Of a DNA stretch of 64,000 nt, positions 23,096 to 27,196 are shown piece by piece (positions within the stretch are counted from its first letter, which is position 1; the number at the start of each line of letters is the position of its first letter). This DNA comes from Lutibacter oricola. GTDB taxonomy: Bacteria; Bacteroidota; Bacteroidia; Flavobacteriales; Flavobacteriaceae. The stretch covers positions 930,001 through 994,000 of the forward strand of contig NZ_FNNJ01000001.1 in assembly GCF_900106565.1 (NCBI RefSeq), read 5' to 3'. The notes beneath the pieces were generated by a model, which worked only from the letters and a program-made list of their open reading frames with translations, was not told the DNA's origin and ran no database searches. A program made the translations under genes and the position numbers.

Positions 23096-23103
23096 TAGAT
23101 TTG
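23096..23103 (+). promoter_or_regulatory. Possible -7 promoter box of the aromatic operon
   Basis: TAGATTTG matches the TAnnTTTG consensus and lies 18 bases before the start codon of the Phe/Tyr-rich leader peptide. The position fits a short leader transcript beginning near 23110. The nearest TTG upstream (23064-23066) is too far away for a standard -33 element. Confidence 0.4.
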
Positions 23104-23121
23104 TCAGGAAAATTACGATTA

Positions 23122-23190
23122 ATGAGATTAACTAATACATTCAACCGCTTCTATTTTTACTTTTATTTTATTAATAAAAGAGAGGCTTAG
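23122..23190 (+). CDS. Phe/Tyr-rich leader peptide of aromatic attenuator
   Basis: A 22-codon reading frame starts with ATG at 23122 and stops with TAG at 23188-23190. Residues 10-16 read FYFYFYF, seven consecutive aromatic codons (TTC TAT TTT TAC TTT TAT TTT), and there is another Phe at residue 7. It lies 27 bases before a terminator hairpin and 75 bases before the prephenate dehydratase gene, in the same orientation. This is the arrangement of amino-acid attenuator leader peptides such as PheL: scarcity of charged tRNA-Phe or tRNA-Tyr would stall the ribosome here. Translation is inferred, not shown, but such a run of aromatic codons in this exact place is unlikely to be chance. Confidence 0.85.
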   Translation: MRLTNTFNRFYFYFYFINKREA

Positions 23191-23227
23191 TGTATATTAT
23201 TTAACAATAAAATATTTAAAAAGTCTC
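23182..23227 (+). promoter_or_regulatory. Candidate antiterminator pairing
   Basis: GAGGCTT at 23182-23188, at the stop codon of the leader peptide, can pair with AAGTCTC at 23221-23227 over seven positions (one G-T). The second segment is part of the 5' arm of the terminator at 23218-23230, so the two structures exclude each other. A ribosome that reaches the stop codon would cover GAGGCTT and allow termination; one stalled on the earlier Phe/Tyr codons would leave it free and allow read-through. Confidence 0.65.
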
Positions 23228-23251
23228 GATAAAAATCGAGACTTTTTTTTT
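23218..23251 (+). terminator. Attenuator terminator before pheA
   Basis: The arms AAAAAGTCTCGAT (23218-23230) and ATCGAGACTTTTT (23235-23247) pair perfectly over 13 bases around an AAAA loop, and the T-tract runs to 23251. Only 14 bases separate it from the pheA start codon, so it must control entry into the operon and does not simply end the upstream transcript. Confidence 0.88.
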
Positions 23252-23265
23252 AGATAAAAATTAAA

Positions 23266-24084
23266 ATGAGAGTAGCAATACAAGGAATTAAAGGGTCATT
23301 TCATCATATAGTTGCAGAACAGTATTTTGGTAAAAATATTGACTTAGTTGAATGCTTGTCGTTTAGTGAAATGCCATTGTTGTTAACAGATGATAAAGCG
23401 GAAGTTTTAATTATGGCAATTGAAAATTCTATAGCAGGAGCTATTTTGCCAAATTATGCATTAATAGATAACAATAATTTAAATATTTGTGGGGAATTTC
23501 ACTTACCAATTCATCATAATTTAATGGTGTTTAATGGTCAAAAAATTGAAGATATTAAAGAAGTTTATTCGCACCCAATGGCCTTACTACAGTGTCATAA
23601 ATTTTTTAAAGATTATCCGCATATTAAATTAATTGAAGATACCGATACAGCAAATGTTGCCAAAAGAATACAAGAAAATAAATTGTTAGGTGTTGGAGCA
23701 ATTGCTAGTTCGTTAGCTGCAGAAACATATAATTTAACAATAATTGCTCCTGAAATACAAACTATAAAAGATAACTCAACACGGTTTTTTATTCTTTCTA
23801 ATGAAGAGCGTAAACAAAGCTTATCTGCTAACAAAGTTTCTATAAAATTTGTAGTAGGTCACGATGCAGGTAGTTTGGCTGAAGTATTATCAATTTTGGC
23901 TAAGCATAATTTAAATATGTCTAAAATACAATCTATGCCTGTTATCGAGACTCCTTGGAAATATGCATTTTTTGCAGATTTTATTTTTAATAGTTATGCA
24001 GATTATTACGATGCATTGGAAGAAATAAAAGAAAAAGTTGAAACAATAAAAGTATTAGGTGAATACACCAAAAGTAAAAGATAA
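23266..24084 (+). CDS. pheA: Prephenate dehydratase
   Basis: The enzyme converts prephenate to phenylpyruvate for Phe synthesis. This 272-residue form is monofunctional. The N-terminal catalytic part begins VAIQGIKGSFHH and includes ENSIAG and the hallmark Thr-Arg-Phe motif in NSTRFFILS near residue 168. A C-terminal ACT domain starts near residue 190 (SIKFVVGHDAGSLAEVL) and would bind Phe for feedback inhibition; the usual ESRP motif reads QSMP here. It has no fused chorismate mutase, which in this operon is attached to DAHP synthase instead. The stop codon overlaps the start of the aminotransferase gene by one base. Confidence 0.95.
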   Translation: MRVAIQGIKGSFHHIVAEQYFGKNIDLVECLSFSEMPLLLTDDKAEVLIMAIENSIAGAILPNYALIDNNNLNICGEFHLPIHHNLMVFNGQKIEDIKEVYSHPMALLQCHKFFKDYPHIKLIEDTDTANVAKRIQENKLLGVGAIASSLAAETYNLTIIAPEIQTIKDNSTRFFILSNEERKQSLSANKVSIKFVVGHDAGSLAEVLSILAKHNLNMSKIQSMPVIETPWKYAFFADFIFNSYADYYDALEEIKEKVETIKVLGEYTKSKR

Positions 24085-25241
24085 TGATACAAAAAGCTGA
24101 TAGATTAAATAGTGTAACAGAATACTACTTTTCTACAAAATTAAGAGAAGTAGCAGCTTTACGAAATGAAGGTAAACCAATAATAAACATAGCAATTGGT
24201 AGTCCAGATTTAGCTCCGCCAAAAACTGTAATTGAAGCATTAGCAAATACTTCAATTTTGCCAACATCTCACCAGTATCAAAGTTATCAAGGTATTCCAG
24301 AATTTAGAGAATCTGTAGCTGGTTTTTATAAAAAACATTACAATGTTGCCTTAAATCCAGTAAATGAAATTTTACCATTAATGGGTTCTAAAGAAGGAAT
24401 TATGCATATCTCTATGGCTTTTTTAAATAAAGGTGATAAAGTATTAATTCCAAATCCAGGTTACCCAACATACGCATCTGTAACCAAATTAGTTGAAGCA
24501 GAAGCGCTAGCCTATAATTTAAATGAAGCTAATAATTGGTTACCAAATTTTGAAGAACTTGAAAAAGAAGATCTTTCTAAAGTGAAAATTATGTGGGTAA
24601 ATTATCCACATATGCCAACAGGAGCTGTAGCTTCAAAAGAAAATTTTAAACAATTAATAGCATTTGCTAAAAAGCACAATATTTTAGTTGTAAATGACAA
24701 TCCGTATAGTTTTATTTTGAATGACAATCCTATTAGTATTTTAGAGGTTGAAGGAGCTAAAGATGTTGCTATAGAATTAAATTCTTTAAGTAAAACATTT
24801 AATATGGCGGGTTGGCGTGTAGGTATGGTAGTTGGTGATTCGGAAATAATAAAAACCATTTTACAAGTAAAAAGTAATATGGATTCTGGAATGTTTTTAG
24901 GTATTCAAAAAGGAGCAATTGCTGCTTTAAATTGCAGTAAAGATTGGTTTAATGAGTTAAATGCAATTTATGTAAAACGAAGAAAACTAGTTTGGCAAAT
25001 ATTTGACGCTTTAGGTTGCACTTACGATACTGAAATAGGAGGGTTATTTGTTTGGGCTAAGTTGCCGGAAGGAAGAAAAGCTGGAGAGTTTACCGATGAA
25101 TTATTATATGAAAAAGATGTATTTATTACTCCAGGAATAATTTTTGGTACAAATGGAGAAGGATACATACGTTCATCACTATGTGTTGCAGAAAAAGTTT
25201 TAGAAGAAGTATTAAGTCGTTTAACTACAACCAATAATTAA
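24084..25241 (+). CDS. Class I/II aminotransferase (aromatic amino acid)
   Basis: This is a fold-type I PLP aminotransferase of 385 residues. It has NIAIGSPDLAPP near the N-terminus, the NPGYPTYAS segment, the NDNPYSF motif and the PLP lysine K237 in LSKTFNMAGWRVG. Its place between prephenate dehydratase and prephenate dehydrogenase indicates a role in the final transamination of phenylpyruvate and 4-hydroxyphenylpyruvate to Phe and Tyr, or of prephenate to arogenate. Aspartate- or LL-diaminopimelate aminotransferase relatives look similar, so the substrate rests on context. Confidence 0.87.
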   Translation: MIQKADRLNSVTEYYFSTKLREVAALRNEGKPIINIAIGSPDLAPPKTVIEALANTSILPTSHQYQSYQGIPEFRESVAGFYKKHYNVALNPVNEILPLMGSKEGIMHISMAFLNKGDKVLIPNPGYPTYASVTKLVEAEALAYNLNEANNWLPNFEELEKEDLSKVKIMWVNYPHMPTGAVASKENFKQLIAFAKKHNILVVNDNPYSFILNDNPISILEVEGAKDVAIELNSLSKTFNMAGWRVGMVVGDSEIIKTILQVKSNMDSGMFLGIQKGAIAALNCSKDWFNELNAIYVKRRKLVWQIFDALGCTYDTEIGGLFVWAKLPEGRKAGEFTDELLYEKDVFITPGIIFGTNGEGYIRSSLCVAEKVLEEVLSRLTTTNN

Positions 25242-25242
25242 T

Positions 25243-26100
25243 ATGAAAAAATTAGTAGTTGTAGGATTAGGACTAATAGGAGGTTCATTAGCACGAGATT
25301 TAAAATTACGAATGGATTATAAGGTCTATGGTGTTGATAACAACATAAATCATATAAATAAAGCAATTGAACTTGGTATTATTGATGAAGAAGGAAGTTT
25401 GAACGATGTTGCAGATGCTTCAGTTGTTATTGTAGCTGTACCTGTAAATGTAATGCCAGAAGTAATAAAAAAAGTTTTAGATAAAGTTGGGTTAGAAACA
25501 TTGGTTTTTGATGTTGGTTCAGTAAAAAATGAAATATGTAAAGCTGTTGAATATCATCCAAATCGTAAAAATTTTGTTGCAGCTCACCCATTAGCAGGAA
25601 CCGAGTTTTCTGGGCCTGAAGCAGCAATATTAGATTTGTTTGACGACAAGGTGAATATAATTTGTGAGGCCGATAAAACAGATTGGAGAATTTTAGATAA
25701 CGCTATAAGCTTATTTAAAAAACTGAATATGCATATTAAAATGATGAACCCGGTAGAACACGATAGACATATTGCTTATGTATCACATCTTTCTCACGTT
25801 AGTTCATTTATGTTAGGAAAAACGGTTTTAGAAATAGAAAAAAATGAACAAGCTATTTTTGATATGGCAAGTACTGGTTTTGCTTCAACAGTAAGGTTAG
25901 CAAAAAGTTCATCATCAACTTGGACACCTATATTTTTAGGTAACAAAGAAAACGTGTTACAATCGTTAAAAGAATACATTAAAAATCTATCTGAATTTAA
26001 AGAGATGCTCGAAAATGAAGATGCGGAAGGATTAAATAAAACAATGAATAATACAAATTATATTAAGAAAGTATTAAACGGAATAGAACAAAACAACTAA
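25243..26100 (+). CDS. tyrA: Prephenate dehydrogenase
   Basis: TyrA oxidatively decarboxylates prephenate to 4-hydroxyphenylpyruvate with NAD. The 285-residue protein begins with the dinucleotide-binding motif VVGLGLIGGSLARDL (glycines 8, 10 and 13) and has the AAHPLAGTEFSGP segment and the catalytic-His-containing HDRHIAYVSHLSH region near residue 170-185, as expected for the family. It starts one base after the aminotransferase stop and is followed by DAHP synthase. No ACT domain is visible, so feedback control probably lies elsewhere. Confidence 0.94.
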   Translation: MKKLVVVGLGLIGGSLARDLKLRMDYKVYGVDNNINHINKAIELGIIDEEGSLNDVADASVVIVAVPVNVMPEVIKKVLDKVGLETLVFDVGSVKNEICKAVEYHPNRKNFVAAHPLAGTEFSGPEAAILDLFDDKVNIICEADKTDWRILDNAISLFKKLNMHIKMMNPVEHDRHIAYVSHLSHVSSFMLGKTVLEIEKNEQAIFDMASTGFASTVRLAKSSSSTWTPIFLGNKENVLQSLKEYIKNLSEFKEMLENEDAEGLNKTMNNTNYIKKVLNGIEQNN

Positions 26101-26122: not shown

Positions 26123-27196
26123 ATGGAAATAACTAAACAAAACAGAAAGTGGTTAGACAATATGGGGTTAGATCATCCAATTGTAATTGCTGGCCCATGT
26201 AGTGCAGAAACTGAAGAGCAAGTATTAAAAACAGCTCATTTATTAAAAGAGACAGATACAAATGTATTTAGAGCTGGTATTTGGAAACCAAGAACAAGAC
26301 CAGGTGGTTTTGAAGGTGTAGGTGCAGTTGGATTACCTTGGTTACAAAGAGTTAGAGAAGAAACTGGAATGAAAATTACTACTGAAGTTGGTAATGCTAA
26401 CCACGTAGAACTTGCCTTAAAAGCAGATGTTGATATTTTATGGATTGGTGCACGTACAACTGTAAATCCATTTGCTGTTCAAGAAATTGCAGATGCATTA
26501 AAAGGTGTAGATAAGCCTGTTTTAGTTAAAAATCCAGTAAACCCAGATTTACCTTTATGGTTAGGTGGTGTAGAGCGTTTTAAAGCAAATGGAATTGACC
26601 AATTAGGTGTTATCCATAGAGGATTTTCTGCATACAATACTGGTCATTATAGAAATAAACCAAAATGGCATATTGCTATTGAGTTGAAAAAAGAATTTCC
26701 AGATTTACCTTTAATTTTAGATCCATCTCATATTTGTGGTCGTAGAGATACTATTTTAGATGTTTCTCAAACGGCATTAGATTTAAATTTTGATGGTTTT
26801 ATGATTGAAACTCATATTGATCCAGATAATGCTTGGAGTGATGCTGCACAGCAAATTACACCAGCTCAATTAGACCAAATTACTCAAGACTTAAAAATTC
26901 GTCAAAAAAGTAGCGATAAGGAAAGTTTCCAAAGTAAATTAAACCTATACCGTAAAGAGCTTGATTTAATAGATAATAATATTATCGATATTTTAAGTGA
27001 TAGAATGGGAGTTGCAGAGAACATTGGTAAATTAAAACATAAAGAAAACGTTGCTATTTTACAAAGTGGTCGTTGGTCAGATATTTTAAAAGCAATGATC
27101 GAAACTGGTCAAAGTAAAGGTTTAAGCAAAGAGTTTGTTGAAGAAGTTTTTAAAGCTATTCACGTTGAATCTATTAACATTCAGCATAAAGTATAA
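26123..27196 (+). CDS. Bifunctional DAHP synthase / chorismate mutase
   Basis: This 357-residue protein combines the first step of the shikimate pathway with the chorismate branch-point step. Residues 1 to about 262 are a KDO8P-type (AroA-beta) DAHP synthase: IAGPCSAE, WKPRTRPGGF, WIGARTTVNPF, VKNPVNPDL, HRGFS and DPSHICGRRD. Residues about 270-357 are an AroQ-type helical chorismate mutase: LNLYRKELDLIDNNIIDILSDRM and AENIGKLKHKENV. It ends the aromatic operon, directly before a strong terminator. The fusion is known in Bacteroidetes and Firmicutes, with the domain order differing between groups. Confidence 0.94.
   Translation: MEITKQNRKWLDNMGLDHPIVIAGPCSAETEEQVLKTAHLLKETDTNVFRAGIWKPRTRPGGFEGVGAVGLPWLQRVREETGMKITTEVGNANHVELALKADVDILWIGARTTVNPFAVQEIADALKGVDKPVLVKNPVNPDLPLWLGGVERFKANGIDQLGVIHRGFSAYNTGHYRNKPKWHIAIELKKEFPDLPLILDPSHICGRRDTILDVSQTALDLNFDGFMIETHIDPDNAWSDAAQQITPAQLDQITQDLKIRQKSSDKESFQSKLNLYRKELDLIDNNIIDILSDRMGVAENIGKLKHKENVAILQSGRWSDILKAMIETGQSKGLSKEFVEEVFKAIHVESINIQHKV

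Follow-up and report, generated by a model that had tools for sequence, protein, structure and literature searches.

A 64,000-nt stretch of the Lutibacter oricola genome (assembly GCF_900106565.1, contig NZ_FNNJ01000001.1, positions 930,001-994,000, forward strand), referred to here as the window and used as the numbering frame for all positions, contains an operon for aromatic amino acid synthesis that is preceded by a short leader with the features of a transcription attenuator. Judged by NCBIfam matches, the genes that follow the leader are, in order, pheA, an aminotransferase gene, tyrA and a gene for a DAHP synthase/chorismate mutase fusion (Table 1). The original prediction, made from the letters of the window, had named pheA, tyrA and the DAHP synthase-chorismate mutase as operon members; these assignments hold, and the matches add the aminotransferase as the second gene. 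Among related loci with enough sequence, tyrA lies downstream in 79/79 and DAHP synthase in 78/78, and by a strict test the aminotransferase gene is immediately 3′ of pheA in 68 of 80. The closest gene 5′ of the leader is on the minus strand.

Table 1. Features of the leader and of the operon that it precedes (window coordinates).
Feature	Position	Strand	Basis or remark
TAGATTTG, TAnnTTTG match	23096-23103	+	18 nt 5′ of leader ATG
Leader open reading frame, MRLTNTFNRFYFYFYFINKREA	23122-23190	+	Translation; aromatic leader in 80/80 kept loci
1:2 protector hairpin	23135-23195	+	Folding, alignment
1:2 outer helix	23135-23141/23189-23195	+	Folding, alignment
1:2 middle helix	23147-23152/23181-23186	+	Folding, alignment
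1:2 inner helix	23160-23167/23173-23180	+	Folding, alignment
Regulatory codons FYFYFYF, residues 10-16	23149-23169	+	Translation, in-frame codon count
Strand 2, GAGGCTT, common to 1:2 and 2:3 helices	23182-23188	+	Pairing, alignment
3:4 intrinsic terminator, 13-bp stem and T tract	23218-23251	+	Terminator scan, alignment
Strand 3, AAGTCTC, inside terminator 5′ arm, partner of strand 2	23221-23227	+	Pairing, alignment
pheA, prephenate dehydratase	23266-24084	+	Best NCBIfam match PRK11898, under curated cut-off
Aminotransferase, second gene of operon	24084-25241	+	Nearest models are LL-diaminopimelate aminotransferases, under cut-off
tyrA-type prephenate dehydrogenase	25243-26100	+	PRK08507, over curated cut-off
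DAHP synthase/chorismate mutase fusion	26123-27196	+	NCBIfam matches under curated cut-offs

The leader open reading frame (ORF) has 22 codons and carries an alternating run of phenylalanine (Phe) and tyrosine (Tyr) codons. Downstream of it lies a hairpin of 13 unbroken pairs (23218-23247), followed by T residues up to 23251, which is the only terminator-like match between 22800 and 23500 and is recognized on both strands (2 found against 0.1 expected from shuffles). The segment termed strand 2 shares one base with the TAG stop codon of the leader and can form seven pairs, one of them G-U, with strand 3 (the 2:3 helix), whereas a long 1:2 hairpin joins the early and run codons of the leader to strand 2 and its surroundings. 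The RNA of 23096-23266 is more stable than dinucleotide shuffles (z -3.46). The leader thus combines a cognate codon run, an intrinsic terminator, a mutually exclusive 2:3 antiterminator and a 1:2 hairpin that holds the regulatory codons. Re-translation and pairing bear out the positions originally given for the leader and its FYFYFYF run, for the perfect 13-bp terminator with T tract and for the antiterminator overlapping the stop codon; the 1:2 hairpin and the TAnnTTTG box had been overlooked.

Conservation of this anatomy was followed in the 80 best of the 237 related stretches from a protein search, most of them attributed to Lutibacter and other Flavobacteriaceae, which together with the window make up 81 loci (loci are cited by L numbers); in their alignment the ends of L025, L026, L041 and L048 were set by hand. 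More distant sets consisted of 29 same-family and 31 same-class loci, with two of the 33 same-class genomes, whose pheA matches were weak, and six same-order genomes left out. In 80/80 kept loci, pheA is preceded by a short ORF containing at least three aromatic codons in a row. When a leader is defined, as for the distant sets, as an ORF with at least six of nine aromatic codons no more than 300 nt from pheA, it is found in 77/81 near, 29/29 same-family and 26/31 same-class loci, against 27/1620, 8/580 and 7/620 shuffles, respectively, and no reverse complement in any group (0/81 in the near set). Among the near loci that were missed, the leader of L006 and L009 lies farther upstream, beyond 300 nt and behind an insert, and L026 and L032 have five of nine aromatic codons; among the same-class loci, L128 has a leader with a GTG start. 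An automatic scan detected the terminator in 73/81 loci and the remaining eight show it in the alignment. Relatives support rather than refute the attenuation mechanism originally proposed: they retain the leader frame, the hairpin and the antiterminator, with covariation (see below), and such leaders are found far outside this genome. Covariance model R1 likewise placed its top matches 5′ of pheA, with many weak ones elsewhere, and its yield of 102/296 genomes at an E value of 0.01 is not usable as a leader count. As a separate observation, an insert of ∼90 nt with ATGCG...CGCAT-like ends, by eye resembling a small repeat element, lies between terminator and pheA in the Lutibacter loci L002, L003, L006, L009, L015, L017 and L020; L006 and L009 seem to hold it twice, and L015 has a shorter form.

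The TAnnTTTG sequence upstream of the leader is presumably the Bacteroidetes -7 promoter box. It occurs 16-38 nt 5′ of a leader ATG in 57/81 loci, a count without chance control, and from this position transcripts may begin close to the leader ATG.

The codon run of the leader is maintained as a reading frame. Across the 81 loci, 544 of 567 run codons are aromatic in frame, versus 197 and 177 in the other two frames, and the third bases of these codons are T in 387, C in 176, G in 4 and A in none. At least one further aromatic codon stands directly 5′ of the run in 79/81 loci. These preceding codons include a tryptophan (Trp) codon in 54/81 aligned leaders, and the window has a Phe codon there; Trp may therefore also be sensed in many species, the window lacking that codon. 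The rarity of such a run was considered as evidence in its own right and rejected: seven-codon aromatic runs number 3 within the window against 0.09 expected, but they are common in this AT-rich genome as a whole, where 117 forward and 19 reverse matches compare with 125 and 12 in a backwards control and many fall in one poly-T tract. Since the run alone is common, the case rests on its arrangement and conservation.

Covariation was counted separately for the three helices on the 81-row alignment and compared with 500 shuffles. For the 3:4 helix, 89.2% of cells are paired, both sides have changed in 10 of 13 pairs, and cells with changes on both sides number 59 versus 20.2 in shuffles. The 2:3 helix is paired in 93.7% of cells, shows both-side changes in five of seven pairs, and has 22 both-side-change cells, versus 6.6 for shuffles and no more than 11 for slid versions of the helix, whose pairing drops to 28-64%. 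The 1:2 helix is paired in 78.5% of cells overall and in 92.3% in its middle part, where one pair is U-A in 36/81 loci and C-G in 35/81; its both-side-change cells amount to 92 versus 42.1 in shuffles. In more distant loci (family, class and one beyond; 51/57 usable, the other six being dropped for want of a detected terminator), the native 2:3 duplex has an energy of -12.0 kcal/mol compared with -7.5 kcal/mol when arms are taken from other loci.

The spacing of these elements was assessed with a stall model in which the ribosome covers 12 nt downstream. In the window, a stalled ribosome would free strand 2 and one that has finished translation would cover it. The last aromatic codon 5′ of strand 2 is 13-16 nt away in 76/81 loci and 11-12 nt away in five, and stalls at 4-10 aromatic codons per locus keep strand 2 free. 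In folds made without shuffle control, segments 2-3 alone form the 2:3 helix (at least five of seven pairs) in 81/81 loci, a ribosome at the stop codon leaves 3:4 to form (at least eight pairs) in 81/81, and in the untranslated leader strand 2 is held by upstream sequence (at least four bases) in 79/81.

Taken from sequence comparison, these features very probably denote a pheL/trpL-type transcription attenuator mediated by the ribosome, in which read-through would rise when Phe or Tyr is short. RNA polymerase would start just 5′ of the short leader ORF. With charged tRNA-Phe and tRNA-Tyr in ample supply, the ribosome would reach the stop codon and cover strand 2, whereupon the 3:4 terminator would form and transcription would stop before pheA. 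Under shortage of either amino acid, the ribosome would stall in the alternating run and open the 1:2 hairpin, leaving strand 2 free to pair with the emerging strand 3, and the polymerase would continue into the operon. Without any translation of the leader, 1:2 would form and the terminator would prevail.

Several observations weigh against attenuation in this form. The leader was not found in four of the 31 same-class loci (L117-L120), in one of which, L119, the stretch 5′ of pheA resembles by eye the end of an EPSP synthase gene. In 33/81 loci a further aromatic codon falls where strand 2 begins or later, and a stall there would cover strand 2. In relatives with a stop codon 17-24 nt beyond the beginning of strand 2, a ribosome that has completed the leader would cover that strand only partly. 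The 1:2 outer helix is paired in 55.5% of cells, and the number of 1:2 pairs changed on both sides (12 versus 11.0 in shuffles) is matched by 181/500 shuffles; the corresponding number for 2:3 is matched by 16/500. Further pair types are no higher than in shuffles for 3:4 (354/500 match) and 1:2 (383/500), and weakly above them for 2:3 (52/500 match). RNAalifold, applied to the full alignment, returned the terminator as the sole structure, 1:2 being absent, and for nine of the 51 distant loci more than 5% of shuffles equal the native 2:3 duplex. Finally, equilibrium folding in this genome has the terminator beating the antiterminator, so that antitermination must be kinetic, as it is in classical attenuators.

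Four other explanations can be set against attenuation. One is that the leader controls translation, with the hairpin near pheA masking the start region and translation of the leader exposing it. Consistent with this, 14 nt separate the end of the T tract from the pheA start in the window, and the two are similarly close in many Lutibacter loci. Over the whole near set, however, anything between 11 and 192 nt separates the T tract from where the pheA match begins (L026 left out; an ATG lies up to 15 nt earlier in some loci), and a hairpin ∼190 nt away, as in L006 and L009, is unlikely to mask the start. The T tract itself is kept, with at least six T at the aligned column in 77/81 loci and a shift or an interruption by one base in the other four. 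Because the tract is kept while its distance to pheA varies, termination is favoured over masking of the start, and we regard translational control as improbable.

An equally improbable alternative is that the nascent peptide senses a free aromatic amino acid and thereby arrests the ribosome, rather than the ribosome being halted by starvation for charged tRNA; arrest of the TnaC kind is the model for such sensing. The FYFYFYF core is strongly conserved within Lutibacter, but relatives exchange Phe, Tyr and Trp, giving FYFYFFF, FFFFFYFY, YFYFFYFF and WFYFFF, so that the class of codon is kept and the peptide is not.

Slightly less probable still is a T-box, riboswitch or protein-binding leader in which the ORF is a by-product of a U-rich tract. 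The U-rich run and the large 1:2 hairpin would suit such an element, yet the third codon positions, devoid of A, the loss of most aromatic codons in the other frames, and loci of other families (e.g., L143, L145) in which the aromatic codons persist although many of them end in C all speak against it. No Rfam family matches the leader; the covariance models detected only a tRNA and an S16-Flavobacteria ribosomal protein leader in the whole window, the latter (RF03138, 62298-62332) exceeding its gathering score. The least credible reading, an ordinary terminator of an upstream transcript next to a chance ORF, draws on the terminator-like form of the hairpin on both strands and on the frequency of aromatic runs in an AT-rich genome, but the minus-strand orientation of the nearest upstream gene leaves the terminator no obvious upstream gene to serve, and the leader counts in shuffles and reverse complements given above speak against a chance ORF.

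Leaders were also looked for beyond the class. A leader was present in one of nine loci picked from the listed matches, whereas with strongly similar pheA genes chosen it was present (at least five of nine aromatic codons) in six of seven, one of which is the same genome as the single case among the nine. The loci L255-L259 and L261 combine an aromatic leader with a terminator-like hairpin; in L258 and L259 the leader is ∼320 and ∼640 nt, respectively, 5′ of the pheA match, which lies there inside a longer open frame. As the leader accompanies strongly similar pheA genes outside the class, it seems to be tied to one pheA lineage.

In some groups the leader is doubled. Two sets were analysed, genus g24 (L195-L224, the best 30 of 35 genomes with a pheA match) and family f5 (L225-L254, the best 30 of 38). 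Two Phe/Tyr-rich leader ORFs in series precede pheA in 20/30 loci of g24 and 17/30 of f5, compared with 0/600 shuffles, and each ORF has its own detected terminator in 16 loci of either set, i.e., 32/37. In these 32 loci, strand 2 pairs with the arm of its own unit at -11.7 kcal/mol versus -8.5 kcal/mol with that of its neighbour; over all 87 units the value is -11.56 kcal/mol against a permuted mean of -7.84 kcal/mol (standard deviation 0.25; lowest of 2000, -8.67). A two-leader series upstream of pheA is listed also for L143 and L145 (g24) and L124 (f5). On balance, we lean toward an old, class-wide aromatic OR-gate attenuator, responding to Phe or Tyr and often Trp and tied to one pheA-operon lineage, which in some groups would have been doubled into a series of two attenuators for the same signal; each of the two would have its own leader and mostly its own terminator, and the switch would be steeper or tighter as a result.

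Leaders for other amino acids were detected in the same genome. The hisG gene (L191) is preceded by a histidine (His) leader, MTFIQLHHHHLNTCNQAS, and a terminator-like hairpin with a T-rich tail; having four consecutive His codons, this leader was missed by a search for five. A chorismate-binding gene (L193), of trpE type by eye, is preceded by a Trp leader, MKNNNLNTTWWWNSLIQ, and a terminator-like hairpin with a T tract. The hairpin AAAAGTCCTTTC...GAAAGGACTTTT, which has a T-rich tail, ends 14 nt upstream of a second chorismate-binding gene (L192), where no obvious leader with regulatory codons was seen among the listed ATG ORFs. The covariance model of Bacteroid-trp (RF01692) gave no match in this genome.

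The pheA leader resembles the pheL and trpL attenuators of Proteobacteria, which likewise consist of a short ORF with regulatory codons, 1:2, 2:3 and 3:4 helices and an intrinsic terminator in front of the cognate biosynthetic operon. It differs from them in belonging to another phylum, in lacking an Rfam family match, in its mixed Phe/Tyr run and in serving an operon with both branches of the pathway plus DAHP synthase. A trp leader attenuator is described in PMC3641672. A further difference from pheL and trpL is that the host group is reported not to use Shine-Dalgarno sites (PMC9976891; PMC10931766). In Flavobacterium psychrophilum, structured 5′ elements that lack Rfam matches and are conserved in other genera have been reported upstream of pheA and hisG, along with strong clues for leader-peptide attenuation before amino acid operons (PMC9723704), although the main-text section on them specifies neither a leader peptide nor an antiterminator nor covariation for pheA. 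Bacteroid-trp is a cis-regulatory candidate of Bacteroidetes (PMC2864571), whose name points to trp genes; the genes served differ from those of the pheA leader. Long 5′ untranslated regions of Bacteroides thetaiotaomicron contain short ORFs reminiscent of leader peptides (PMC7366714), and short leader genes have been surveyed in many phyla including Bacteroidetes, mostly with regard to reinitiation (PMC4833913). The tandem forms are comparable to the Salmonella mgtCBR leader, in which two short ORFs each act in an attenuator; there, however, the two respond to different signals through stem-loops unlike intrinsic terminators (PMC3641672), whereas the tandem relatives described here carry Phe/Tyr codons in both ORFs and mostly an intrinsic terminator for each. 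A literature search with most subscription papers outside its reach found no description of the pheA leader peptide itself, nor, in a single search directed at them, of same-signal tandem leader-peptide attenuators. The mechanism would be of a known kind and the element is partly foreshadowed in print, the detailed anatomy, the class-wide reach and the tandem forms being new.

The leader represents a clear, testable control element for aromatic amino acid synthesis in a large environmental group of bacteria. Classical attenuation requires a ribosome that closely trails RNA polymerase, and for this reason the pheA, His and Trp leaders make both transcription-translation coupling and Shine-Dalgarno-free initiation on very short leaders testable in Bacteroidia. 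Were the class-wide OR-gate and tandem reading true, the tandem forms would constitute two same-signal leader-peptide attenuators in series, and tight coupling of transcription and translation would take place at leaders in bacteria reported to initiate without Shine-Dalgarno sequences.
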